Shown here: one piece after another, positions 1-16,297 of the stretch | Numbering within the stretch: position 1 is the first letter of the stretch | How the letters are laid out: each line of letters starts with the position of its first letter | Assembly (NCBI RefSeq): GCF_024228315.1 | Contig: NZ_CP100454.1 | Span: 2,976,001-3,040,000 of the forward strand | Length of the DNA: 64,000 nucleotides | DNA from: Halomarina pelagica | GTDB taxonomy: Archaea; Halobacteriota; Halobacteria; Halobacteriales; Haloarculaceae | Direction of reading: 5' to 3' | Translations under genes and position numbers: made by a program | The notes under the pieces: model-generated | The model's database searches: none | Told to the model about the DNA's origin: nothing | The model's input: the letters and a program-made list of their open reading frames with translations, nothing else

Positions 1-13
1 CGGAGGAAGTTCG

Positions 14-253
14 ATGAACGCCAGAGACCTCTTGGAGGAGTGGGAAGCCGGGGAGAAAACGGGAGTCCGTCCGTCGAGAGCGCAGGTTCTCCGGCCCCAT
101 CTCATCGAGTACACCAGTTTGTACGTCCCCCACCGACACGCCGCGTTAGAAGCCTGGCTTCCTCGATTCCGAGGGCAAATTACTCGCTTCCTTCGCGAGG
201 CCGCTGAAGCAGAGGAGGAAGAGGAGGCCCTCGCTTCAGAGGCTTCAGATTAG
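14..253 (+). CDS. Small acidic hypothetical protein (79 aa)
   Basis: Function not recognised. The start is supported by a GGAGG Shine-Dalgarno at 2-6, unusual in this otherwise largely leaderless genome. The protein has a mixed N-terminal half with a basic stretch and ends in a run of Glu/Ala (residues 62-79), typical of a soluble halophilic protein. It lies at the left edge of the lower-GC island and is convergent with the winged-helix gene at 342-716. Codon use is less GC-biased than in the core genes further right. It may belong to an integrated element, but nothing in the protein proves that. Confidence 0.6.
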   Translation: MNARDLLEEWEAGEKTGVRPSRAQVLRPHLIEYTSLYVPHRHAALEAWLPRFRGQITRFLREAAEAEEEEEALASEASD

Positions 254-260
254 CCTGAGA

Positions 261-297
261 GACATTCTTTGCCTTCTGTGCTCCCTAACACTAGGAG
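261..297 (+). repeat. Repeat copy 1: GACATTC-like block plus hairpin
   Basis: A 24-base block beginning GACATTC and containing TTGCC and TCTGTG is repeated at 1102-1125 with three internal mismatches. It is followed by a short potential hairpin (CTCC 281-284 with GGAG 294-297). It lies 8 nt after the stop codon of the 14-253 gene, in the gap between convergent genes. It could be a terminator or RNA element of the island. Confidence 0.5.
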
Positions 298-341
298 AGT
301 CATTGAATCGCTGAGAACGAGCGTGGTGGCCTCTGAGCTTA

Positions 342-716
342 CTATCGGTAGAAGTCTTCGATCGCCTTCCTCGAAGCACCGATAGTATCCTCTGCGGTCT
401 CTACGGCCGCTTTGAGAGCCTCACCATCGTCCGAGAGAACTACTTCCCCTGTCTCCCGGTTGTGATCCACGATCCCGTGCTGGCTCAGCTTCGGGAGATG
501 ACAGTGATATAACGAGATGTGTGCCTCTTGCACGCATCCCGTCTTTGCGTCCGCTATAGACTCACCTGTCTCATCCTCTACGATCGCTTTCACGAGCGCC
601 TGCCGAGTAGCCATTCCACCGTTCGCCGCTATCGTTTTGACAACGGACCGACGGCGCGCATTGGACAGCAACCCAAGCGCCGTATCAGGAGCCGTTGTCG
701 GGTCCCACGCCGACAT
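342..716 (-). CDS. Winged-helix DNA-binding protein (DUF7344-like)
   Basis: A 124-residue putative transcription regulator. The pattern LLSNARRRSVVKTI near residues 16-29, followed by a helix-rich region and a 'LSQHGIVDHNRETGEVVLSDDG' type wing, matches the haloarchaeal winged-helix proteins annotated as DUF7344 or ArsR-like. Such proteins are common in haloarchaeal viruses, plasmids and integrated elements. An inverted repeat just upstream (739-764) could be its own operator. It is the only recognisable regulator in the left island. The family call is from pattern recognition only; the target is unknown. Confidence 0.7.
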   Translation of the reverse strand: MSAWDPTTAPDTALGLLSNARRRSVVKTIAANGGMATRQALVKAIVEDETGESIADAKTGCVQEAHISLYHCHLPKLSQHGIVDHNRETGEVVLSDDGEALKAAVETAEDTIGASRKAIEDFYR

Positions 717-738
717 TTTGTTTCCACCTGTGTCTCCT

Positions 739-764
739 ACCCATTCTGTTCCTCTCTAATGGGT
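739..764. promoter_or_regulatory. Inverted repeat upstream of the winged-helix gene
   Basis: ACCCATT at 739-745 and AATGGGT at 758-764 form a perfect 7-base inverted repeat with a 12-base spacer. It sits 23-48 nt before the start of the minus-strand regulator gene, a good place for autoregulation. Inference only. Confidence 0.4.
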
Positions 765-856
765 GCTTGGGTTGCATGTGACACGCTTTCATAACCCCGT
801 GACTATTGCTGTCAATTCGATTAAATCCAGTGAAAATCGCTTATTATTGGCTGTTG

Positions 857-1021
857 TCACCCTCGAAGGCCCCGATCGATCGCGCACTTCCCACAGTAGT
901 CCTTGCCGTCCTCCTCTCGCCATTGGAGCCACTCCTCCTCGCGGTACATCCTTTCGCAATCGGCGCAAATCCGATCGGGGACCGGTTCACGGAAATCGAC
1001 CATAGGGTCTTCTCGTTCCAT
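857..1021 (-). CDS. Tiny zinc-ribbon protein (54 aa)
   Basis: A 54-codon reading frame with a convincing four-cysteine zinc ribbon: CADC at residues 19-22 and CGKC at residues 43-46, separated by an acidic/aromatic segment. A GAGG Shine-Dalgarno-like element lies just before the ATG at 1021. Small one-ribbon proteins of this type are abundant in haloarchaea and their viruses, where they are thought to mediate nucleic-acid or protein contacts. The specific role is unknown. Paired CxxC spacing and acidic composition argue against a chance frame. Confidence 0.65.
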   Translation of the reverse strand: MEREDPMVDFREPVPDRICADCERMYREEEWLQWREEDGKDYCGKCAIDRGLRG

Positions 1022-1101
1022 AGAGGCCTCTGAGTACTACTCGGACTTAGGTATCTCCCTCGGCGGGCAAATCCCCGAGAAGCTCACAGTTTTACCTCGA
1101 A

Positions 1102-1139
1102 GACATTCATTGCCCTCTGTGGTCTATCCTACTCGGATA
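1102..1139 (+). repeat. Repeat copy 2: GACATTC-like block plus hairpin
   Basis: Second copy of the block at 261-297. The following hairpin has a different sequence but keeps the shape: TATCC (1125-1129) pairs with GGATA (1135-1139). It lies between two tiny minus-strand genes (857-1021 and 1194-1343). Confidence 0.5.
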
Positions 1140-1193
1140 ATCGCGGACGCTCTCAGGAAGGGCGTGAGTGGGCTTGGAATCGAAGAGAGGGGG

Positions 1194-1343
1194 TCAGTCG
1201 ATCCGAGAGTAGCGCTTTCCTCGAAGGACGAGGTCCCCCTCTCCCGTGATATGCGCATCTCCCGGGCTAAGGTCTCCTTTGATGTGAGCGAAACAGAGCC
1301 CGGCTCCGTTAATTGTAGAACCGTCGTCGGACTCCCATAGCAT
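1194..1343 (-). CDS. Tiny hypothetical protein (49 aa)
   Basis: A 49-codon frame on the minus strand whose predicted protein is acidic and glycine-rich (WESDDGS near the start, then HIKGDLSPGD and a basic C-terminal RGKRYSRID). The amino-acid balance is halophilic and unlike the Arg/Ser-rich shadows in the other frames. No function is recognised. It lies in a row with two other tiny minus-strand genes, 48 nt after the 1392-1550 gene, which suggests co-transcription. It may be a viral or plasmid accessory protein. Confidence 0.45.
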   Translation of the reverse strand: MLWESDDGSTINGAGLCFAHIKGDLSPGDAHITGEGDLVLRGKRYSRID

Positions 1344-1391
1344 GAGCGAGGGGAGGCCCTCACGGGGCTTCAAACCCCGGGGTAGGGGCTA

Positions 1392-1550
1392 TTATTCGAT
1401 CCTTTGGAAGGGCTCGCCGTGGATGTAGACCGTTTCCCCGTCGGGAGACCACTCAATGTCGCCAGGGTAGACCCGATCCCGAAGGAGAGCCTCGATGAGG
1501 ATTTCTCCCTCCACTTGCTCCCCCGACCGAGATTGATAGACCGTCGCCAT
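1392..1550 (-). CDS. Tiny hypothetical protein (52 aa)
   Basis: A 52-codon minus-strand frame starting at the ATG at 1550. The protein is acidic with a plausible beta-rich segment (DIEWSPDGETVYIHGEPF, residues 31-48), similar in character to the neighbouring 49-residue product. No Shine-Dalgarno is clear. No family is recognised. It is probably the first of three co-oriented tiny genes (1550 down to 857) filling the island between the winged-helix gene and the truncated actin gene. Confidence 0.45.
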   Translation of the reverse strand: MATVYQSRSGEQVEGEILIEALLRDRVYPGDIEWSPDGETVYIHGEPFQRIE

Positions 1551-1651
1551 GTCAGAATTAGAAGATGCGGCAATATAATCCGTTGGGTTTGGTCGGGAGG
1601 TAACCCGCTACCCTCGAAGTACCGGCAAAGGGGGCCGATAGTGTGTAGACA

Positions 1652-1969
1652 TTATGCAGAATATGGAATTTTAAAGAGCTTCATCATGGGGATGGCGCTC
1701 TTCTCGTCGTTCGAGAGGATGCCGCGCTGCATCGGGCGGCGCGTCTCCTGCTTGAAGATGTTCGCGAAGCTGAGCGCGTCGTCGCCGACGACGTACACGG
1801 CGTCGTCCTTCCGGATGTGGAGGACGTCGCTCCGTGAGAGCATCTGCTCTGCCATGTCCGAGTACTCGATCTCGACGAACGAGTTGCGCTGCTGTACGAA
1901 CACCGTCTCCTCCGCGTCCTGCTTCCCGGAGATGATGTTCATCGTGCCGACGTCGATCCCCTTTGCCAT
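1652..1969 (-). pseudogene. 5' fragment of actin-like (volactin/salactin type) gene
   Basis: The 105-residue product begins with the actin-fold phosphate-1 motif (GIDVGTMN, residues 4-11) and continues with FVQQRNSF and VVGDDAL segments that I recognise from haloarchaeal actin homologues (volactin of Haloferax, salactin of Halobacterium; filament-forming shape/partition proteins of roughly 330-350 residues). Similarity appears to stop after 'AIPMMKL' at about residue 98; seven unrelated residues and a stop follow. The other two thirds, including the second phosphate loop, are absent to the left. The promoter side looks intact (TTTATTAC about 40 nt upstream). The simplest reading is truncation by insertion of the 1-1670 segment. 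Confidence 0.7.
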
Positions 1970-6464: not shown

Positions 6465-6518
6465 TGGCGGGAGGAGTGGCTCCGCGCGGTTAACCTGTGT
6501 GGTTCGCCCGAGGGGGCG

Positions 6519-6815
6519 TCAGTCCTCCAGCCAGGCGTAGAGGTCCTCCTTCGGCGCGCCACAGTCCGGACACGCGTCGGGGAGGCCGTCGTCGAGTTCA
6601 CCGACCTCGCCGCACTCGGCGCAGCGCCAGACGAGGTACCCCTCGCCGAACCCCCGCCCGGGATCGTGTTCGAGGTCGACGTGATCGACCGACTCGTGCG
6701 TACTCACGCGGAATCCCTCCTCCGAGAGCCCCCGGATGACGCCGAGTTCGTTGCCGTCCCGGTCGAAGATGGGCTGTCCGGGCTTCACGACGATGGGCGC
6801 TGATTCCTGTGCCAT
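6519..6815 (-). CDS. Rubredoxin-like zinc-ribbon protein (DUF7130-like)
   Basis: 98 residues from the ATG at 6815 (MAQESAP); a longer upstream extension in frame is Arg/Ser-rich and not credible. The N-terminal half (GQPIFDRDGNELGVIRGL) looks PRC-barrel-like; the C-terminal third has a two-CxxC rubredoxin/zinc ribbon (CAECG, then CPDCG) ending in YAWLED. Haloarchaeal proteins of this architecture are named DUF7130 rubredoxin-like. It may bind zinc or iron and mediate protein contacts; no enzymatic role is visible. It lies 55 nt upstream of dph2 on the same strand and may be co-transcribed with it. Confidence 0.8.
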   Translation of the reverse strand: MAQESAPIVVKPGQPIFDRDGNELGVIRGLSEEGFRVSTHESVDHVDLEHDPGRGFGEGYLVWRCAECGEVGELDDGLPDACPDCGAPKEDLYAWLED

Positions 6816-6986
6816 ACCTCTACGAAGGTGCGGGCGGAGCATCAAACTGATGGGCGGTAGCACCCAACACGATCTGGCCGCGCCGGACGTGCTCCTCCGG
6901 AGCGGGGGGACGGCCCCGTGGGGGCCGGGGACGACGCTTCGCGACCTCTTCGGCACACCTAAACCCGCCCGGTCCCAAGGCGGGGT

Positions 6987-7394
6987 ATGAGCATCGAAAC
7001 CACGCCGGACGCGGAGGGAGAGAACACGCCGGAGGCCGAGGTCACGCGCCTCGCGACCGAGTTCGGCGAGGCGATCTCAGAACTCCCGGCGTACCGGGAG
7101 TTCGCCGAGGCGAAGGCGGCGGTCGAGGAGAGCGAGGAGGCCCAGGAGAAGATCCGGGAGTTCGAGGGGCTCCGCGAGGAGTTCATGCTCGCGCGCCAGA
7201 CCGGCGCGGCGACGAACGACGACCTCCGCGAACTCCAGCGCGCACAGCAGGAACTCCACGAGGTGCCCGTCATGAACGAGTTCCTCCGCGCGCAGTCCGA
7301 CCTCGAACTCACGCTCCAGGAACTCAACGAGATGGTCTCCGCCCCGCTCGCCATCGACTTTGGCGGGAAGGCCGGCGGCTGCTGCGAGGACTGA
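6987..7394 (+). CDS. YlbF/YmcA-family protein
   Basis: A 135-residue, almost entirely helical, charged protein of the YlbF/YmcA (DUF964) family. In Bacillus, members act in RNase Y and competence/biofilm control; archaeal roles are unknown. The helical core covers about residues 20-115 (ELPAYREFAEAKAAVEES..., then LQRAQQELHEVPVMNEF). It ends in a small cysteine-containing tail (GGCCED) often seen in haloarchaeal members. The start ATG at 6987 follows closely on a GC-rich region with no clear Shine-Dalgarno. Confidence 0.85.
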   Translation: MSIETTPDAEGENTPEAEVTRLATEFGEAISELPAYREFAEAKAAVEESEEAQEKIREFEGLREEFMLARQTGAATNDDLRELQRAQQELHEVPVMNEFLRAQSDLELTLQELNEMVSAPLAIDFGGKAGGCCED

Positions 7395-7490
7395 GCGGCC
7401 GCCGTTCCCGTTCCCGTATCTACCGCCGTCACCGATTCCTTCCCGCGGTTCTCTCAATTTATCGCGCGCGCCGGGAAACATACGTATAGG

Positions 7491-7503
7491 TTATTTTATA
7501 TAA
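7491..7503 (+). promoter_or_regulatory. TATA box for the 7527-7952 gene
   Basis: TTATTTTATATAA stands out in very GC-rich DNA about 30 nt before the GTG/ATG starts at 7527/7533, as expected for a leaderless archaeal promoter. Confidence 0.7.
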
Positions 7504-7526
7504 TCGGAAGTGAGTGTGCGTGTACT

Positions 7527-7952
7527 GTGGTAATGGTACGGGAGGTGTCGTTCACGGCGACCGACGAACTGCTCGAGTGGTTGGAATCGGAGGCGCAGCG
7601 CCGGGCGACGACGCTTCCGGCGACCGTCCAGGGGTTGCTCGCGGAGCGCTACCGCGAGGAGCGACCCCGCGACGAGGGGCGCACCGACGGGACGTCGCAG
7701 TACGACGAGGAGGCCCTCTCGGCGCTCACCGAGGAGCTGGAGCGAGCGGGGGGCGAGCGCCCCCCGCTCGAACGCCACCCGGACGTCTGGCACGTCGAGT
7801 CCCGCGGAGACGGCAACGAGTACGCCGTGCGCCTGCCGGACGGCAAGTACGCCTACTACCGTCGCCGCGAATTCGCCGCCCGACGGGTCGTCCGGGAGTA
7901 CGAGGGGGGCGACGCGGCGGACCCCTCGTTCGACCTCGAAGCGAACAACTAA
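7527..7952 (+). CDS. Haloarchaeal hypothetical protein (141 aa)
   Basis: Function not recognised. GTG at 7527 and ATG at 7533 are both possible starts; the TATA box at 7491-7503 favours either as leaderless. The N-terminus (EVSFTATDELLEWLESEAQRRATTLPATVQGLLAERYREE) resembles a ribbon-helix-helix DNA-binding fold, with a beta strand then two helices. The C-terminal part (EYAVRLPDGKYAYYRRREFAARRVVREYE) looks like a small mixed domain. A DNA-binding role is possible but inferred from shape alone. It lies 24 nt before the MBL hydrolase gene and may share its transcript. Confidence 0.7.
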   Translation: MVMVREVSFTATDELLEWLESEAQRRATTLPATVQGLLAERYREERPRDEGRTDGTSQYDEEALSALTEELERAGGERPPLERHPDVWHVESRGDGNEYAVRLPDGKYAYYRRREFAARRVVREYEGGDAADPSFDLEANN

Positions 7953-7976
7953 CCCCCTCCCGGGAGAGCGCCCGGT

Positions 7977-8807
7977 ATGGTTCACTCCGACTGGGGCGAC
8001 TGGCTCCTCCGGGCCGTCGAGGACGCCGACCCCGACGGGCTGGCCGCCTGGTACCTCGGGTGCAACGGTTTCGTGCTGAAGGCGAGCGACGGGACGACGA
8101 TCTTCGTCGACCCGTACCTCGGGACGGGCGACCCGCCGCGGACCGTCCGGATGATCCCCGTCCCGTTCAACCCGACGGACGTGCGCGAGGCGGACGCCGT
8201 CCTCGCCACCCACGAGCACACGGACCACGTCCACGGTCCGAGCCAGGCACCCATCCTCGCGGGGACGGACGCGACGTTCTACGCGCCGGACGCGGGCCTC
8301 GACGTGGTCGAGGACGAGGGCTGGACCGACGAGTGGGACCTCGGCGACGACCGGTTCGTCGAGGTGACCGAGGGCGACAGCTTCGAGGTGGGCGAGGTGA
8401 CCGTCCGCGTCGAGGGGGCGAACGACCCCGATGCCGAACACCCCGTCTCCTACGTGATCGAGCACGCGGGGCGGACGTTCTTCCACGGCGGCGACGCGCG
8501 CCCCGGCGAACCGTTCGAGTCCGTCGGCGAGCGCTACGAGATCGATCTCGGGGTCCTCGCCTTCGGGAGCGTCGGGATGATCCGGGACAAGGAGACGGGG
8601 GAACCGACGCGCACGCGGTGGTACTCCGACGAGAACATGATCGTCGAGGCCGCCGCGCAACTCGACCTCGACCGACTCCAGCCGACCCACTGGGACATGT
8701 GGCGGGGGATGACGGCCGATCCGACGGCCCTGTTCGACCACGCGCGGAGCTTCGACGCCCCGCGCCGCGTCGAGATCCGCGAGATCGGCGACCGGACGGA
8801 CGTCTGA
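7977..8807 (+). CDS. MBL-fold metal-dependent hydrolase (UlaG-like)
   Basis: A 276-residue metallo-beta-lactamase-fold hydrolase. The metal-binding signature HEHTDH is at residues 79-84; a further FFHGGD metal ligand block follows near residue 163 and a late histidine is in 'PTHWDMW'. The overall layout (early 'VDPYLGTGD', then the His motif) resembles UlaG/L-ascorbate-6-phosphate lactonase-like proteins rather than RNase Z. Substrate cannot be deduced; archaeal UlaG-like proteins are mostly uncharacterised. Probably co-transcribed with the preceding small gene. Confidence 0.9.
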   Translation: MVHSDWGDWLLRAVEDADPDGLAAWYLGCNGFVLKASDGTTIFVDPYLGTGDPPRTVRMIPVPFNPTDVREADAVLATHEHTDHVHGPSQAPILAGTDATFYAPDAGLDVVEDEGWTDEWDLGDDRFVEVTEGDSFEVGEVTVRVEGANDPDAEHPVSYVIEHAGRTFFHGGDARPGEPFESVGERYEIDLGVLAFGSVGMIRDKETGEPTRTRWYSDENMIVEAAAQLDLDRLQPTHWDMWRGMTADPTALFDHARSFDAPRRVEIREIGDRTDV

Positions 8808-8867
8808 CCCCGATCCGGGATCGACACGCATAGATTTAATACAAAATAACGAGACGTTCATCTATTC

Positions 8868-9872
8868 ATGAGTGATGCAGAGACGGACGTCGTCACCGCC
8901 GAGGAGGACGGGGTCGCGGTGGAGAAGTCGTTCGCGCCGGACGACTTCCCCGTTCCCGCGATCGCCTTCGTCGTCGAGAACGCGCGCGACGACCGGGCCG
9001 TCGTGCGCGTGACCGACGACCTCCCCGACGGGGTGGCCCCCGACGACGTGGGGTTCCACCCCGAGTACGGCGAGGACTGCTGGCGGGTCGAAGACGGCCG
9101 GCTCGTCTTCGAACGGGCGCTCGACGCCGCCGAGACGTACACGACGGTCTACGGACTCCGCGACGCCGATCTCGCCGCCGTCGAGCGGTTCCTCGTCGAA
9201 CCGACCCTCGACGCGCTGGACCCGGCGGAGGCGGATTCCCGCGACGACGCCGGTCACCCCGGCCGCGTCGACGTCCCCCCGGTGGACGCCGAGGCCGTCC
9301 TGGGGTCGGACGACGAGGCGACGGACGGCGCAGAGCGGGATCTCGAGAGCGGGGGTGACGACGGGCTGATCGGGCCGCTACCGCTCTCGGAGCCGGGCGT
9401 CGCGGGTGACGACGCCGCGGACGGCTCCGACGGCCCCACCCACTCCGCTGCGGGCGGGTTGGCGACGCGGTTGGCCGCCGAACTCGAATCCGGCGACGTG
9501 GACGACGGGACGAGGGAGGTCCTCGCGTCGCACCTCGGCGGCGCGACGGGGAGCGTCGACGCCCGCATCGAACGGCTCCAGGCCGACGTGGCCGACCTCC
9601 GCGCGTACGCCGACGCGCTTGAGTCCTTCCTCGACGAGAACGGGGACGCCCAGCGGGTGCTCGGTGATCTCCGCGAGGAACTGGCGTCGGTCGCGGAGCG
9701 CGTCCGAAGCGTCGAGGACCGGTCGACGGCGACCCGCGACGGCGTCCGGGAAGTGAGCGACAGGGTCGACGACCTCGAGTCGACCGTCGCCGACGTCGAG
9801 GCCGACCTCGACGCCTTCGAGGGCTTCCGCGAGCGGGTGGCGAGCGTCTTCGGCGCGGGCGACGGAGTCTGA
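8868..9872 (+). CDS. Two-part protein: Ig-like N-domain and C-terminal coiled coil
   Basis: A 334-residue acidic protein, haloarchaea-type. Residues 15-110 form a beta-rich module (VEKSFAPDDFPVPAIAF..., ending TTVYGLRDAD) resembling an immunoglobulin-like domain. A disordered acidic/Gly linker covers about 125-205. Residues 220-325 are heptad-rich coiled coil. No signal peptide or membrane segment is seen, so it should be cytoplasmic. Leaderless promoter likely: TTTAATACAAAA at about 8834. It precedes another unknown gene by 44 nt, so they may act together. A scaffold or partitioning role is conceivable; nothing proves it. Confidence 0.75.
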   Translation: MSDAETDVVTAEEDGVAVEKSFAPDDFPVPAIAFVVENARDDRAVVRVTDDLPDGVAPDDVGFHPEYGEDCWRVEDGRLVFERALDAAETYTTVYGLRDADLAAVERFLVEPTLDALDPAEADSRDDAGHPGRVDVPPVDAEAVLGSDDEATDGAERDLESGGDDGLIGPLPLSEPGVAGDDAADGSDGPTHSAAGGLATRLAAELESGDVDDGTREVLASHLGGATGSVDARIERLQADVADLRAYADALESFLDENGDAQRVLGDLREELASVAERVRSVEDRSTATRDGVREVSDRVDDLESTVADVEADLDAFEGFRERVASVFGAGDGV

Positions 9873-9916: not shown

Positions 9917-10801
9917 ATGGCAACCATCAGCGTCGCCGTTCCGCGGAAGGGGCGGCCGCTCGAGGCGGTCCTCGAACGCCTCGCCGCCCGGACCGGCGCG
10001 CGAGGGGTGGCCGACGACGTCGTCTCGACGCTCCGGTACGAGAAGGCACTCACGAAGGGCACGCAGACGACCGACGCGCCGGTCTACGACCGACTCGCCG
10101 CCTACAGCGACCGCGACGATCCGTACGCCCCGGAGTACACGCTGCTCCGCGACGCGCGCGCGGGCTTCCCGCGGCGCGTCGTCTTCGACTCGCTCACGAT
10201 CCCGGCGGGCGATCACGACCTCCTGCTGGTCGGCCGCGAGGAGCCGTTCCGCTCGCTCCGCAAGCACGAGTTCGCCCTCGGGTTCGACAGCGCCGATCTC
10301 GTGCTGGAGGAAGTGGTCACGCTCGACGCCGACCCGCTCGCGGACATCGAGGCGGTCAACGGTCGGATCGACCCGCGGGACACCGACGTTCGCGTCGTCG
10401 GCGGACTCGGAGACACCGTCTACCACACGCTCCTCGCGACGCCCGTCGTAGGCGACGGCGACCTCGACCGTTCGTTCGTCGAGGGGTACGCCGGCCCGCT
10501 GTGCGTCTCGCCGCGCTACGAGCGCCTGGTCGAGGCGGTCCTCGGGACGCGCGCGACCGAGGACGTCGAGTTCTGCTACCCCGCGGAGTCGGAGACCGAG
10601 GAGGAGGCCATCTCGGACGCGGGGCTCGGCGTGTACGTCACCGTCACCGGGTCGACCGCGCGCGACCACGGCCTCGTCCTCGGCGAGCGGCTCTTCCCGA
10701 GCGAGACGGTCCTCCTCGAGAACCGGCGCGAACTCACGTCGGCGGAGGCCGGCGTGAAGGAGCTGTTCTCGTCGGCGGAGACCGAACTCACCGTTCGGTG
10801 A
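9917..10801 (+). CDS. HisG-like fold protein of unknown function
   Basis: A 294-residue protein starting MATISVAVPRKGRPLEAVLERL, which resembles the opening strand-helix of ATP phosphoribosyltransferase (HisG; 'iAvPkGRl'). Later blocks (ADLVLEEVVTLDADPLADIEAV and ETVLLENRREL) sit roughly where HisG has its 'ADAIVDLVSTG' and 'SSARLIVN' segments. The match is weak and the phosphoribosyl-binding signature is not clear, so this may be a divergent periplasmic-binding-protein-II-fold protein without HisG activity. No other histidine genes are nearby. Follows the coiled-coil protein gene by 44 nt. Confidence 0.5.
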   Translation: MATISVAVPRKGRPLEAVLERLAARTGARGVADDVVSTLRYEKALTKGTQTTDAPVYDRLAAYSDRDDPYAPEYTLLRDARAGFPRRVVFDSLTIPAGDHDLLLVGREEPFRSLRKHEFALGFDSADLVLEEVVTLDADPLADIEAVNGRIDPRDTDVRVVGGLGDTVYHTLLATPVVGDGDLDRSFVEGYAGPLCVSPRYERLVEAVLGTRATEDVEFCYPAESETEEEAISDAGLGVYVTVTGSTARDHGLVLGERLFPSETVLLENRRELTSAEAGVKELFSSAETELTVR

Positions 10802-10850
10802 CCGCCGATGGCCGGACGCGGCGGGACCGTCGCGTCCCGCGACCGCTCGA

Positions 10851-11717
10851 TCACTCCGGCGCGAGCGGTTCGTCGCCGTCCCATCGGTAGAACCCCTCGC
10901 CCGCCTTCTTCCCCAGCTTCCCCGCGCGGACCTTCCTGCGGAGGAGGGCCGGGGGGCGGAAGCGCTCGCCCAGTTCCTCGCGGAGGTACTCGAGGACGTG
11001 CAGGCGCACGTCAAGCCCCACGCGGTCGGTGAGTTCGAGCGGCCCGACCGGGTGGTTGTAGCCCTCCCGCATCGCCCGGTCGATGGCGGCGGGGGAGGCG
11101 ACGCCCCCCTCGACCATCCGGATGGCCTCCGCGCCGAGCGCGACGCCGAGCCGCGAGGTCGCGAACCCCGGGAAGTCCTCGACGACGACCGTCCGCTTCC
11201 CCACCTCGTCGAGGGTGGTGACCGCCCACTCGCGCGTCTCGTCGCTCGTCCGCTCGGCGACGATCACCTCGACGAGGTCCATCAGGTGCGGCGGGTTGAA
11301 GAAGTGCAGGCCGACGAAGCGTTCGGGCCGCGAGACGGCGCTCGCGAGTTCGGTCACGGAGAGCGACGAGGTGTTCGTCGCGAGGACGGCGTCGGTCGGC
11401 GCGTGTTCGTTCACCTCGGCGAACACGGACCGCTTGAGGTCCATCTCCTCGGGGATCGCCTCGACGACGAGGTCGGCGTCGCGGACGGCCGCCGCGAGGT
11501 CGGTCGTCCCCGTCATCCGAGCGAGCGTCTCGTCCCGGCGGTCGGGCGCGACCTTCCCCAGTTCGACGCCCTTCTCGAGGTTCTCTCGCACCTGGTCGAG
11601 TCCCGCCTCGACGAGTTCCGCGTCGACGTCCCGGACGACGACGTCGTGACCCGCCATCGCGAACACCTGTCCGATCCCGTGGCCCATGCTCCCGGCACCC
11701 AGTACTGCGACGTGCAT
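10851..11717 (-). CDS. 3-hydroxyacyl-CoA dehydrogenase
   Basis: NAD-dependent short/medium-chain 3-hydroxyacyl-CoA dehydrogenase (HbdA/PaaH type), oxidising 3-hydroxyacyl-CoA to 3-ketoacyl-CoA in beta-oxidation or the reverse in synthesis. Rossmann motif GAGSMG at residues 7-12; catalytic His138 in GLHFFNPP and Glu150 in DLVEVI; the C-terminal dimerisation domain ends with the common 'GKLGKKAGEGFYRW' block. Length 288 is normal. It stands alone and convergent with the unknown gene before it. It may feed the same acyl-CoA pool as the 41.6-46 kb cluster. Confidence 0.93.
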   Translation of the reverse strand: MHVAVLGAGSMGHGIGQVFAMAGHDVVVRDVDAELVEAGLDQVRENLEKGVELGKVAPDRRDETLARMTGTTDLAAAVRDADLVVEAIPEEMDLKRSVFAEVNEHAPTDAVLATNTSSLSVTELASAVSRPERFVGLHFFNPPHLMDLVEVIVAERTSDETREWAVTTLDEVGKRTVVVEDFPGFATSRLGVALGAEAIRMVEGGVASPAAIDRAMREGYNHPVGPLELTDRVGLDVRLHVLEYLREELGERFRPPALLRRKVRAGKLGKKAGEGFYRWDGDEPLAPE

Positions 11718-12389
11718 ACGCCCCCTGACGCGCGGGGGAACAAAGGTGTACGTCGTCCGTGCCTCCGGGTTCCCCGCGACGGAGGGCAGTGGGCGTCCGG
11801 GACGCGGTCGACGGAGCGTGAAGCGTTATCGGACGACTCCCCGCCCGACGTTCGGACACGCGGTGAACGGTACCGACGTCGGACACGGACCTATCTCACC
11901 CGCCGCGTTCGAGCCGTCCACGGCGACGCGCTCTCCCCGGCCGCGAACGCGACGGCCGCGTTCGGCCCGTTCATCCCGGAGCAGACCAGCGACGGGTTCG
12001 ACCCCGGCGACTCGGTCGGGTCGGACGCCGATCGAGGGTGAGCCCGGCGCGAAACGTTCACGTAACGGGGGCTGTCCCCCCGTCGGTCGCGACCCGACCG
12101 CTGTAAGCTCACCTTCGAGAGAAGCTCCCAACGATGACGACGATGACCTGATGACCGAGAACCGCCGCAGGCAGTCGACTTCCCGGCGATCTGCGCCCTC
12201 CCTCGATACGCTCGACGGTAGCCCGGTTCATACCCGCCGTCCGGCTCCCGTCGAGACGAGCGGTGATCCGGACGACGTTCCGCTCCGATCGCGTCGCGTA
12301 CGTTCCGATTTCTACGCGTCATATCGACTATATTACAATAAGTACTCCGGTCGATGATCGGGTGTGCCACAGCGCACAGACGACCACAC
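11718..12389. other. Gene-poor stretch, 670 nt
   Basis: No gene can be supported. Open frames on both strands here are Arg/Ser-rich or lack family resemblance. A GC hairpin, ACGGGGG-CTGTC-CCCCCGT, lies at about 12065-12083. AT-rich elements at about 12327-12345 (ACTATATTACAATAAG) are 45-60 nt before the next gene and are its likely promoter. Confidence 0.5.
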
Positions 12390-13418
12390 ATGAGTGACGA
12401 CAATCGAGGCACGCAGACGGAGCAGGGAGAATCGTACGTTGAAGCAGTCCGCGAGCAGCTCACGTCCCGCCGGAGCTTTCTGGCGGGGTCGGCGGCCGCC
12501 GCGGGAGCGGTCGGTCTCGGGGGGGTGGGCGTCGTCGGTGCACACGGCGACGAGCGGAAGAAGGACGATCACGCGAAGAAAGCGATGAAGGACGGGAAGG
12601 CCGACGACGGATCGCGTCCGTTCGCGGGCGTCGAGTTCACCAACCAGTTCTCGGGCGGTCGGTCGGTCGTCGTCGACGAAGTGGTCCTCTCTGCGGGCGG
12701 CTTCGTCGCCATCCACGACCTCAGCCTCCTGGACGGGAAGGTACTCGAGAGCGTCGTCGGGGTCACGGAGTTTCTCGAGGCGGGCGAGCACCACGAGGTG
12801 CGTGCGACGCTGTTCGACGTGAAGGGCGCGGACTTCGAGACGGACCGACTCGAGGCGAGCCAGCCGCTCATCGCGATGCCTCACCTCGACACGAACGGTA
12901 CCGAGACCTACGACTTCGTCGCCACCGGCGGGAAGCAGGACGGACCGTACCTCGAAGCCGGACAGGCGGTCGTCGATCTCGGGTTCGTCACCGTCGGGGA
13001 GGACGGGGCGGACGACTGCGACGGGAGCACGGCGTTCGCGACGATCGACTTCGAGAACCAGGTTTCGGACGGGCGATCGATCGTCGTCGACGAGGTGGTC
13101 CTCTCTGAAGGCGGCTTCGTCGCCATCCACGACCGAACGCTCCTGGAGGGGAACGTGATCGGAAGCGTGATCGGGGTCTCCGCGTTCCTCCCGCCGGGCG
13201 TACACTACGACGTGCCGGTGACGCTGTTCGAGGTGAAGGGTGCGGACTTCGAGACGGATCGGCTGACGAAGACCCAGCCGCTCATCCCGATGCCCCACCT
13301 CGACACGAACGACACCGAGACCTACGACTTCGTCACCACGGAGGGGAAGGAAGACGGCCCGTACGTGAAGGCGGGCAACGCGGTGGTCGACCTGGGGATC
13401 GTGACCGTCGACGAGTGA
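12390..13418 (+). CDS. Exported protein with two DUF7282 repeats
   Basis: 342 residues from the ATG at 12390 (MSDDNRG). A twin-arginine signal (SRRSFLAGSAAAAGAVGLGG) is followed by a charged linker and two tandem copies of the haloarchaeal DUF7282 domain: each has a 'FxNQxSxGRSxVVDEVVLSxGGFVAIHD' strand block and ends with 'MPHLDTNxTETYDFV'. The domains occur on exported or surface proteins; the role is unknown. The two copies are very alike in DNA (around 12664-12720 and 13078-13134), implying recent duplication. Confidence 0.85.
   Translation: MSDDNRGTQTEQGESYVEAVREQLTSRRSFLAGSAAAAGAVGLGGVGVVGAHGDERKKDDHAKKAMKDGKADDGSRPFAGVEFTNQFSGGRSVVVDEVVLSAGGFVAIHDLSLLDGKVLESVVGVTEFLEAGEHHEVRATLFDVKGADFETDRLEASQPLIAMPHLDTNGTETYDFVATGGKQDGPYLEAGQAVVDLGFVTVGEDGADDCDGSTAFATIDFENQVSDGRSIVVDEVVLSEGGFVAIHDRTLLEGNVIGSVIGVSAFLPPGVHYDVPVTLFEVKGADFETDRLTKTQPLIPMPHLDTNDTETYDFVTTEGKEDGPYVKAGNAVVDLGIVTVDE
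12664..12720 (+). repeat. Direct repeat inside the DUF7282 gene, copy 1
   Basis: Codons for VVVDEVVLSAGGFVAIHD here are nearly identical at the DNA level to 13078-13134 (copy 2), differing at only a few bases, including silent ones. Marks the intragenic domain duplication. Confidence 0.7.
13078..13134 (+). repeat. Direct repeat inside the DUF7282 gene, copy 2
   Basis: Second copy of the block at 12664-12720, offset by 414 nt (one domain length, 138 codons). Confidence 0.7.
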
Positions 13419-13643
13419 CGGTCGCGACCCCGGCCGAATTCGACCTCGCCAGTCGAACTGCACGAACCGCACTCCGTACATCTATCGATCGTTTTCGGCT
13501 AATTGACCACTGATGAGAGAACGAGGAGGGCACCACTCACAGTCCGGATGAAGCCGCGTTGGAATGCGGAATATGAGGACGAGTGGCGCAAGTCGCCAGA
13601 GGGTTGTAGGCATTCAAGTTACATCGTAACGGGTCAGTGAACG

Positions 13644-14042
13644 ATGAAGAGAAGACACTGTGTAAGTCTCCTCGTTTCGGCAGTAACCGGATGTTCCGCG
13701 TTACAGTCAGATCGTACGGATTTCTCCGGAATCAAACGCAACTGCGACTGGGAATCCGGTGAGTCGAGGATCTCAGCTACTTGCGAAATGTTTTCCGGGA
13801 CTAGCGTTCGGAAGGTCCTTTTGAACGATGGTGGTGACGTTTCGATCGATTGTAAGGCTAAGCTGGATCAGGGAACTATCGAGTTCACCCTGTGGACGCC
13901 GACCGAGGAAGTGCTGTGGGAGCAAACGGGCCGCAGTTTCGAGGCGATCCAGCGGGTATCGATCGAACGGAGCGGCACGTATCGATTCGTGATTCAGGGT
14001 GCCGAGGCAGTTGGTCAATTCGAACTGTCGTGGACAACGTGA
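13644..14042 (+). CDS. Small exported lipoprotein
   Basis: 132 residues with an N-terminal signal ending in a lipobox (VTGC, Cys17), then a beta-rich domain with two further cysteines before residue 50 and one near 73; such a layout suggests a small Ig-like extracellular domain. No family recognised. The gene and its flanks (13490-14310) are clearly less GC-rich than the surrounding DNA and use more A/T-ending codons, a sign of horizontal acquisition. Surface location is inferred from the signal. Confidence 0.7.
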   Translation: MKRRHCVSLLVSAVTGCSALQSDRTDFSGIKRNCDWESGESRISATCEMFSGTSVRKVLLNDGGDVSIDCKAKLDQGTIEFTLWTPTEEVLWEQTGRSFEAIQRVSIERSGTYRFVIQGAEAVGQFELSWTT

Positions 14043-14311
14043 CGGAAGTGATTGCTAGATGCGGTACCCGTTCACAGATCGAGTACCTTCCCCACCTGCA
14101 TCTCCCCTCGAATCGGATCACGTCTGGCGGTTTCTCGCTCGAACAGCACCTCCCGGGATCTCGCCAGTAGCACTCATCAGCACTCCACCCTTCGACGTTC
14201 TGAACCGGATGACTAGCCACATTTCATATCGCGAGATAGGGTTTATTCGACGCGCACCCGACGCGGAATTCGGTTGCTACGCGGGCGACAGATGGTGGGG
14301 TCGGGGGCACG

Positions 14312-15346
14312 TCACGTCAGCGTGTAGATGTTCGCCTCGTAGACCCCGCGGACGCGGTCGCCCCAGTTGTGGGTGTAGGTGTCGATGACGTCCGTCGCCA
14401 CGTCCCCCCGGAGGTACTTGACGATCCCGCGGTCGCCGGTGCGATCCCGCAGGTGGGTCGTGAAGAAGTGCCGGAAGTAGTGCGGCGTCACGTTCTCGCT
14501 AGCGCCCCCGCCGGTCCGGTACCATCCCCGGGCCTCCGCGTGGCGCTTTACGGTCGCCCGAACCCGAGGCGGAGTGAGGCGCTCGCCCCAGTCCTCGCGG
14601 GTGCTGACGAACAGCGGTTCGGCGGGTGAGCGGGCGTCGGGGCGGATCGCGAGCCAGCGAACGAGCGCCTCCGCGAGTTCCGAATCGACCGGTACGACGG
14701 TCGCCCGTTTGCGCTTGTTCGAGGCGGACCGTTCCTCGCCGTTGACGACGGTTCCCCGCGCGGGATCGCTCGCGACGAAGAGCGAGTTCGGCCGGCCGTC
14801 GAGCTGCGGACGCGGGGCGACCGAGTACGCCGCTCGGACCGCCGGCTCGTCGAGGTGAACGTCGCGGAGGTCGAGGTTACAGGCTTCGCCGACCCGCATT
14901 CCCGTCTTCAGTAGCGTCAGGACGACCGCCCGTTCGAGCGGGTGGGTGACGCTCGCGACGAACTCGCGCATCGCCGGAACGCCGATCTCGCGGCGCTCGG
15001 GGTCGGTGTCGATCGACTCGTCCATCTCGGAGGTCACGAGCGCCATCGGGTTTGCGTCGAACGCGCCCGTCTGGGCCATGTACGCGTAGAACCGGTGGAC
15101 GTACGTCGCGTAGGTGGCGACGGTGCTCGGGGCGTGCTTCCCCCGGAGCGAGTGAACCCAGGCGAGACACTCCCGCTGTCCGGCACTCGCGGGCGTCTCT
15201 CCGTCGGCGGCGACGAACGCTTCGAACTGCCGTAGGACTCGCTCGTAGGCCGACCGGGTCCGCTCCGAACGCCCGTGATAGGTCATGTCCTGCAAAAAGT
15301 ACTCCACGGGGTCTGCGTCCTTCCCGACAGTGTGGTCTCGGCTCAT
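14312..15346 (-). CDS. Tyrosine recombinase/integrase (XerC/D-like)
   Basis: A 344-residue site-specific recombinase. The SAM-like N-terminal DNA-binding domain covers about residues 10-105; the catalytic domain has Arg151 (TGMRVGEA), the HxxR box His289-Arg292 (HYFRHFF) and nucleophile Tyr324 (IDTYTH). The usual 'LGH' box before the tyrosine reads YLRGDVATD, so the second conserved histidine is missing there. It overlaps the upstream DUF5805 gene by 4 nt (ATGA), a pairing common in haloarchaeal chromosomes. It may be a resident Xer-type protein rather than an element integrase, since no att sites or phage genes surround it. Confidence 0.85.
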   Translation of the reverse strand: MSRDHTVGKDADPVEYFLQDMTYHGRSERTRSAYERVLRQFEAFVAADGETPASAGQRECLAWVHSLRGKHAPSTVATYATYVHRFYAYMAQTGAFDANPMALVTSEMDESIDTDPERREIGVPAMREFVASVTHPLERAVVLTLLKTGMRVGEACNLDLRDVHLDEPAVRAAYSVAPRPQLDGRPNSLFVASDPARGTVVNGEERSASNKRKRATVVPVDSELAEALVRWLAIRPDARSPAEPLFVSTREDWGERLTPPRVRATVKRHAEARGWYRTGGGASENVTPHYFRHFFTTHLRDRTGDRGIVKYLRGDVATDVIDTYTHNWGDRVRGVYEANIYTLT

Positions 15347-15936
15347 CGCCCGTCGTACCCCTTCCCGCTCCGACGGTCAGACGTGGGTGTCGTCCCCGAG
15401 CGCGAGCGCGATGGACGGCGATCGCGGGGCCCGCGATCGGTCCCGTCCTCGCTTCGTCGCCGGCCGCGATCCCGGCGCTGACGTCGAACCCGATCCTCGC
15501 CCGATACGTCAGTTCCTGACGAGCGGGCGTCGCGTTCCAGTGACGCCCGCTCGTCCGCGTCCGACTCGACGAGGGCGTATCCGCCGTGTCGACCGCTGTA
15601 TCGAACGCGTCCCTCGCGCTGAAGCGTCTCGAGGGCATCGTCGAGACGGCCCTCGACGTTGCCCGCGAGGTGAGCGAGGAGATCGTCCCACGAGAGATAC
15701 TCCTCCCGTCGAAGAAGTTCGAGGAGCGTGGTTTCGAGGCCCTCACTCCGGGGGGTAACGTCTCCCTCAGGGCCTTCCGCCGGATCGAGATCGAACCCCC
15801 GCCTCCCGGCCTGCACCATCGTCCTCACGAATTCGCTCTGGCTCATGTCGAGGGCGTCGGCGTGATCTACCCACTCCTCCTTCTGGTAGCGCGGCACGTA
15901 CGTCTTCACCGCCGTACGATCATCGTCATCGGTCAC
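15343..15936 (-). CDS. DUF5805 protein, putative DNA-binding
   Basis: A 197-residue protein whose N-terminus (KTYVPRYQKEEWVDHADALDMSQSEFVRTMVQAGRRGF) has the strand-helix-helix outline of ribbon-helix-helix regulators, followed by a winged-helix-like segment (residues 65-115) and a very basic, Arg/Ser/Asp-rich tail. The family name DUF5805 is from memory. The stop overlaps the integrase start by 4 nt, so the two are translated together; it may help the recombinase bind DNA or regulate it. Confidence 0.75.
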   Translation of the reverse strand: MTDDDDRTAVKTYVPRYQKEEWVDHADALDMSQSEFVRTMVQAGRRGFDLDPAEGPEGDVTPRSEGLETTLLELLRREEYLSWDDLLAHLAGNVEGRLDDALETLQREGRVRYSGRHGGYALVESDADERASLERDARSSGTDVSGEDRVRRQRRDRGRRRSEDGTDRGPRDRRPSRSRSGTTPTSDRRSGKGYDGR

Positions 15937-16297
15937 GACCTGTCTATTCCCGTGAGAGACAATCAGTGTTGTCCTACGCTACTCGATAATGGCCCTTATC
16001 CTGCTCAAGTTCACTATCAATCTCGGAAAAATAGTACTCTACTACTGGATATTAGTGAATACGTGGGGCCACGTACGGAGATATCCTATCCTCACGGACG
16101 ACCCTCGCCTTCGGTTCGGCGGGATGCCGTCGTTCCGTTCTCTGTGTCGCGCTCGAGGTGGGTACGTTCCTGACTGTTATTCGTATTCCTCCTCGGGCCG
16201 GTCCGTTCCTGATTGGGGTAGCGATTCGCGTCGTCCGTCGGGACGGTGCGTCGGGGGTGAACGCGACGTTATCGTGCGTCACTCGCTATCCTTTCCT
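15937..16297. other. Intergenic region, 360 nt, with a palindrome
   Basis: No gene supported. AT-rich for this genome. ACGTGG-GG-CCACGT at 16061-16074 is a perfect 6-base inverted repeat and could be a regulator site for either divergent gene (15936 leftward, 16298 rightward). Confidence 0.4.

Follow-up and report, generated by a model that had tools for sequence, protein, structure and literature searches.

The window (the whole 64,000-nucleotide stretch of DNA analysed, G000:C1:2976001-3040000 of a 4.6-Mb haloarchaeal genome, on a contig of 3.54 Mb) begins beside a gene for the actin-like protein volactin that breaks off after its first third, which raises the question of what has interrupted it and what kind of DNA lies beyond the break. 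An earlier note made from the letters of this DNA had reported an abrupt end of the conserved N-terminal third of an actin-like gene at about 1675, with a shift of GC content and codon use, and both observations hold. Specifically, the ORF at window 1652-1969 (minus strand) matches positions 1-98 of the 321 positions of the Pfam family Volactin (PF25216; E 5e-30); these 98 codons cover window 1676-1969, and the frame then continues for 7 foreign residues to a stop. The break lies at window 1676-1682, where GC drops from 68-71% to ~57%, and GC3 is 0.63-0.75 in the genes of the insert compared with ~0.95 in volactin. Since the family is 321 positions long, volactin does not naturally end near residue 105, an outcome that the note had considered. 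The missing 3' part, which it had expected to the left of the window, is present there (G000:C1:2965807-2966484, minus strand; profile positions 96-321, i.e. 226 profile positions; E 1e-97), on the same strand and the same contig and 11.2 kb from the 5' part. The whole 321-position match is reached only when the two pieces (1-98 and 96-321) are joined, and joining the flanks yields a single open frame encoding a volactin of 363 amino acids. A whole-genome search detected no second full volactin copy in this genome, and in each of the seven other genomes of the genus, which lack the island, volactin is present as a single intact copy.

When both flanks were compared by blastn with the intact locus in the nearest relative (G001) the alignments met with an overlap of 7 bp, GAAGCTC. 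Based on such flank alignments to intact relatives, one copy of this core (read on the volactin strand) forms the right end of the insert at window 1676-1682 (minus strand) and the other lies at G000:C1:2966476-2966482; they constitute a direct repeat of the kind that the note had suggested looking for, and the distance from core to core is 11,200 bp. The insertion point corresponds to volactin codons 96-99 (PMMKLII). An 11.2-kb element has thus been inserted precisely in the sole volactin copy and has split the gene, in keeping with the note's suspicion of a mobile element in a cytoskeleton gene. The GC content of the element is 57%, that of the DNA outside it 68-70%. It is exceedingly improbable that the two halves are truly adjacent and were separated by an assembly artefact: the junctions are known from one assembly only, but both are on one 3.54-Mb contig and have the 7-bp core in common, and in an unrelated assembly the same codons are occupied by another element of this kind (see below).

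Tyrosine recombinases use inverted arms flanking a short overlap. In G001 and G003 the empty site is the near-palindrome GATGATGAAGCTCATCATC; the rebuilt circular junction of the element includes AAAGAAGCTCTTT, and the circular junction predicted for this strain is CACAAAGAAGCTCTTTAAAATT. Judging from the anatomy of the element, it is nearly certain that integration was carried out by its own tyrosine integrase. Comparison of the two volactin halves with G001 gave dS values of 0.12-0.13 and a dN of 0.013 (dN/dS ~0.1), as in a constrained gene, which implies either a recent insertion or continuing selection on the halves. The former is probable because both halves are undecayed. That the split gene remains functional, with both halves expressed and assembling so that the actin is not inactivated, appears very unlikely: both halves are conserved at the dN/dS given above, and in the second element the junction provides an in-frame ATG (MKLIIQQVV...), but here the 3' half has no in-frame start at the junction, the first being a GTG several codons in, and recent insertion alone explains the conservation.

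The right-hand 1.7 kb of the element occupies window 1-1675 and the remainder G000:C1:2966476-2976000. Listed from the far end towards the window (L016 coordinates, i.e. genome minus 2,960,000), the remainder carries an RHH-like (ribbon-helix-helix-like) gene (6484-7074, plus strand; assigned by inspection, the Pfam matches being weak), an intact tyrosine integrase gene (7071-8030, plus strand; PF00589, E 3e-28), a gene whose 206-aa product probably contains membrane segments (8664-9284), a gene for a primase-polymerase-like protein (10346-12238; PHROG 13901, E 7e-41) and cysteine-rich small genes (12358-12881). These are followed by a compact operon in which a 66-aa gene is listed first, before the protease-scaffold gene (13304-14737), and then come a 66-aa zinc ribbon gene (14737-14937), a gp123-like gene (14945-15337) and a TerS-like HTH gene (15304-16017). 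The last gene of this capsid/packaging operon encodes a 79-aa protein and lies at window 14-253 (plus strand). Beyond it, on the minus strand, are a gene for a DUF7344 protein of the winged-helix type (window 342-716; PF24035, E 4e-17), which is probably a regulator of the element, and three small ORFs from the ORF list: one of 54 aa with four cysteines, zinc-finger-like (857-1021), one of 59 aa (1194-1373) and one of 52 aa (1392-1550). The 54-aa and 52-aa ORFs gave no family match in Pfam or NCBIfam, while the 59-aa ORF has a homologue (46%, E 2e-13) beside another DUF7344 gene in the genome (L106). The winged-helix gene, the several genes of 52-79 aa and the short imperfect repeats that had been described to the left of the break are accordingly all present.

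Among these repeats is an imperfect direct repeat, AGACATTC(T/A)TTGCC(T/C)TCTGTG, at window 258-280 and 1100-1122, on either side of the DUF7344 and 54-aa genes, and the final 1.4 kb of the element contains five copies of CCTCGAAG; both are possible regulator or integrase arm sites. Close homologues of the DUF7344 protein (67% and 62%) are encoded in the same genome at L106 (G000:C1 ~815 kb) and L107 (G000:C1 ~2284 kb), where they are solitary or accompanied by the 59-aa gene. A further region, at G000:C1 ~33-39 kb (L105), may be a decayed relative of the element: it combines two DUF7344 genes with a homologue of the 79-aa gene (48%) and a short ORF resembling the N-terminus of an integrase.

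Family scans of the element gave no match to capsid, portal, TerL, tail or lysis genes, and there is no transposase among its family matches. A DNA transposon is ruled out by the lack of a transposase match and by the tyrosine integrase, a complete head-tailed provirus by the lack of matches to major capsid, portal, TerL and tail genes, and a capsid-forming PICI by the lack of any capsid, portal or TerL match.

The operon genes point to one group of viruses. Druskaviridae (HVTV-1, HCTV-1, HCTV-5) are virulent tailed haloviruses, and four proteins of the element are homologous to theirs. The protease region is 52% identical to that of HVTV-1 (E 4e-83), the TerS-like protein 38% identical to HVTV-1 gp108 (E 5e-22), which is encoded two genes upstream of TerL, the gp123-like protein 32% identical to HVTV-1 gp123 (E 2e-18) and the 79-aa protein 52% identical to HCTV-1 gp120 over 61 aa (E 3e-13); the last two are homologues of small proteins from the viral head-tail gene region. 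Eight Druskaviridae records in the phage library were each matched by the protease, the TerS-like and the gp123-like protein, and three of these eight also by the 79-aa protein. The element's protease retains the EHSDQLVG and YSISGE blocks, which we take to bear the catalytic His and Ser. At 477 aa the protease-scaffold protein is smaller than its HVTV-1 counterpart (637 aa), and it is the portion after the protease that is shortened; its position and acidic composition suggest that this portion is the scaffold. The TerS role is suggested by gene position in HVTV-1 together with weak terminase matches (E 0.001-0.002). In other respects the element is unlike the viruses: it measures 11 kb vs 102 kb, it integrates, it lacks capsid, portal, TerL and tail genes, and its virus-type genes are in a different order. 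In IMG/VR no match was obtained for the integrase pair, the protease, the TerS-like protein or the attP junction, and the matches of the 79-aa protein were limited to HCTV-1 itself and a single other viral contig. TerL-like matches occur elsewhere in the genome, at G000:C1:1789476-1790807 (a 600-codon open frame) and G000:C7:5546-7054 (stop-interrupted), and mark possible resident proviruses; these are unlikely to be druskavirus-like helpers, as the element's own protease is the sole one of its kind found in the genome.

Volactin is split likewise in one other of 392 sampled genomes of the class, that of Natronococcus sp. A-GB1 (G370; NZ_JARUKW010000006.1), which belongs to a different family. 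Here the two pieces cover positions 1-102 and 96-321 and lie on either side of an 8.9-kb element. Its ends share a core of 13 bp, GATGAAACTCATC, at the same volactin codons, as comparison with the intact locus of G139 confirmed, and the joined flanks encode a volactin of 347 aa. Scanning 125 genomes of the Natronococcus family added no further volactin insertions, and a scan of genome contigs added only Natronococcus as a close relative. Two more candidates were rejected, G463 because its overlapping adjacent pieces in two copies were read as frameshifts and G363 because it runs off its contig. Both split loci, the only two found in this small sample, hold small elements and no full provirus. 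Three genes common to both elements, those for the integrase (42-44%), the RHH-like protein (29%) and the DUF7344 protein (23%), are alike in order and orientation, the DUF7344 gene lying at the same element end (PF24035, E 5e-18 for the Natronococcus counterpart); the remaining genes differ. The Natronococcus element encodes a TerS (PHROG 9231, E 3e-21) that is related to the HGTV-1 TerS and matched five viral contigs in IMG/VR, and no TerL was found in it. The two elements thus have their integration module in common, and the packaging gene of the second is of another virus type. A tree, mostly unresolved, did not recover the two volactin integrases as sisters (22% of the bootstraps). Neither the second, different element at the same volactin codons in another family nor the satellite-like type of the element, with its virus packaging and capsid-assembly genes, had been foreseen in the earlier note.

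Related elements are present at other sites, although the restricted genome sample contained only a few. In G406 a DNA glycosylase gene is divided in two by an 11.5-kb element (G406:C1:865497-876978), with 9 bp shared, ATGATGCTC. This element carries RHH-like and integrase genes, a homologue of TerS and a gene resembling that of the protease (PHROG 12864, E 3e-7). The G165 element has an integrase, a primase-like gene and counterparts of the zinc ribbon (51%) and of the 79-aa gene (55%), and its C-terminal scaffold-like domain is encoded as a separate 197-aa protein (PHROG 23555 positions 510-616, E 7e-4). The zinc ribbon common to this and the window's element, a candidate for a gene exclusive to such elements, was not found in the searched HVTV-1 stretch; the elements compared are few. 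The G153 element combines an integrase with RHH-like and gp123-like genes and the 79-aa gene (36-40%), and in place of the scaffold it encodes an acidic protein of 155 aa; no TerS was seen in the G153 and G165 elements. Moreover, a related RHH-integrase element is located beside a uracil-DNA-glycosylase-like fragment in G011 (L049 12172-12576, G011:C4). Because of the G406 and G011 sites we rejected the idea that every related integrase is directed to volactin; the family appears to prefer conserved protein genes, among them two for DNA repair.

Four genes with homologues in one family of complete tailed viruses might also be the few fragments left of a druskavirus-like provirus that has lost its capsid, portal, terminase and tail genes. 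We consider such decay unlikely: the genes are intact and form one compact operon in an order unlike that of the virus, known druskaviruses measure ~102 kb and the element 11.2 kb, its integrase and primase are of types with another origin, and the undecayed volactin halves speak for a recent insertion. A satellite is preferred mainly because the same choice of virus genes recurs in different hosts and at different sites.

In bacteria, satellite parasites of tailed phages are widespread. We propose, with a probability of roughly 0.7, that the element exploits tailed haloarchaeal viruses as a satellite and would work like the bacterial PICIs (phage-inducible chromosomal islands). Several traits of PICIs are seen in it: an integrase with a specific att site (the 7-bp core at a fixed volactin position, with the second element at the same codons), a primase/replication module, and a size within ~15 kb (11.2 kb) with no matches to phage structural or lytic genes (capsid, portal, TerL, tail, lysis). 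A TerS without TerL is clear in the Natronococcus element, while the window's element has the TerS-like protein identified by position and weak matches. The protease-scaffold protein and the two small head-tail-region homologues fit assembly-redirecting genes, as would be expected of a satellite.

With SaPI1 and the PICIs as models, we infer excision, dependence on a helper, packaging and head redirection as follows. A circular form almost certainly recombined with the near-palindrome in volactin through its own integrase, across the 7-bp overlap, and the element would then stay silent in the chromosome, probably under its DNA-binding regulators (the DUF7344 and ribbon-helix-helix-like proteins). 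On infection by a Druskaviridae-like helper it would excise, restoring the in-frame 363-aa volactin, replicate by means of its primase-polymerase-like protein and be packaged via its own TerS-like protein; this protein and the shortened copy of the helper's protease-scaffold may redirect helper heads.

Like the PICIs/SaPIs of bacteria (PMC6092414), the element is no larger than ~15 kb, has an integrase at one end, a primase-type replication gene and a specific att site, and lacks a lytic and virion structural set, and several PICI members have TerS without TerL; sequence kinship with PICI genes was assessed by family scans. Unlike them, it has an archaeal host, archaeal-virus genes and a protease-scaffold homologue, and it sits inside conserved protein genes. 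In SaPI1, CpmA and CpmB redirect capsid size and the satellite assembly protein competes with the helper scaffold (PMC5644958). The same logic is proposed here, except that the part would be played by a prohead protease-scaffold in shortened form (in G165 by a free-standing C-terminal domain) and that any size redirection is predicted. Charybdis elements (PMC12324425) are likewise small archaeal virus-like elements, some of them integrated, that have been discussed as possible satellites; at ~4.6 kb they lack genes homologous to helper-assembly genes according to their authors, whereas the present element has such homologues.

The capsid-assembly homologues could alternatively serve as decoys, in which case the element would be a plasmid-like element or genomic island, not a satellite, whose virus genes block infecting viruses, e.g. 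by poisoning head assembly. Its integrase and primase would suit any integrative element. This we regard as decidedly unlikely: PADLOC gave no known defence family among nine unknown proteins, and the occurrence of a TerS-type gene in each of two different elements speaks for packaging over mere blocking. Interference is also an activity of satellites, so that the two readings overlap.

If the satellite reading is correct, tailed viruses are subject to molecular piracy in both prokaryotic domains. We found no description of an archaeal tailed-virus satellite with helper-assembly genes in the open-access full-text literature; one may nevertheless have been published. More tentatively, the elements may belong to a family of haloarchaeal tailed-virus satellites that integrate in conserved protein genes, use volactin as att site in at least two archaeal families and redirect helper heads by a shortened or stand-alone protease-scaffold and their own TerS; integration and excision might then act as a reversible actin switch, possibly at partial occupancy of a polyploid chromosome.

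For the host, the only volactin copy is split although the gene appears essential in Haloferax volcanii, where only a partial deletion was obtained (PMC10869688), and such splitting has occurred at least twice; in Halobacterium salinarum the salactin gene can be deleted (PMC10746226). Either volactin is dispensable in both strains, or the assemblies represent the majority chromosome of polyploid cells, or the halves still work. Reversible control of volactin by excision is possible, as in active lysogeny, where an element such as phiSa3 splits hlb and its excision restores the gene (PMC6597384); here the host gene encodes a cytoskeletal actin and excision is predicted. Dispensability of volactin in these species, mixed chromosomes and switching of cell shape by the element are now directly testable.

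Finally, two observations concern volactin in other genomes. The G067 genome has volactin positions 238-321 only (G067:C1:1837300-1837539; L027), a truncation or other disruption. In many Natronococcus-family genomes, including G125 (C2:40973) and G470 (C1:255442), another complete volactin domain is contained in open frames of ~900-1400 codons, which apparently encode giant volactin fusion proteins beside the normal volactin.
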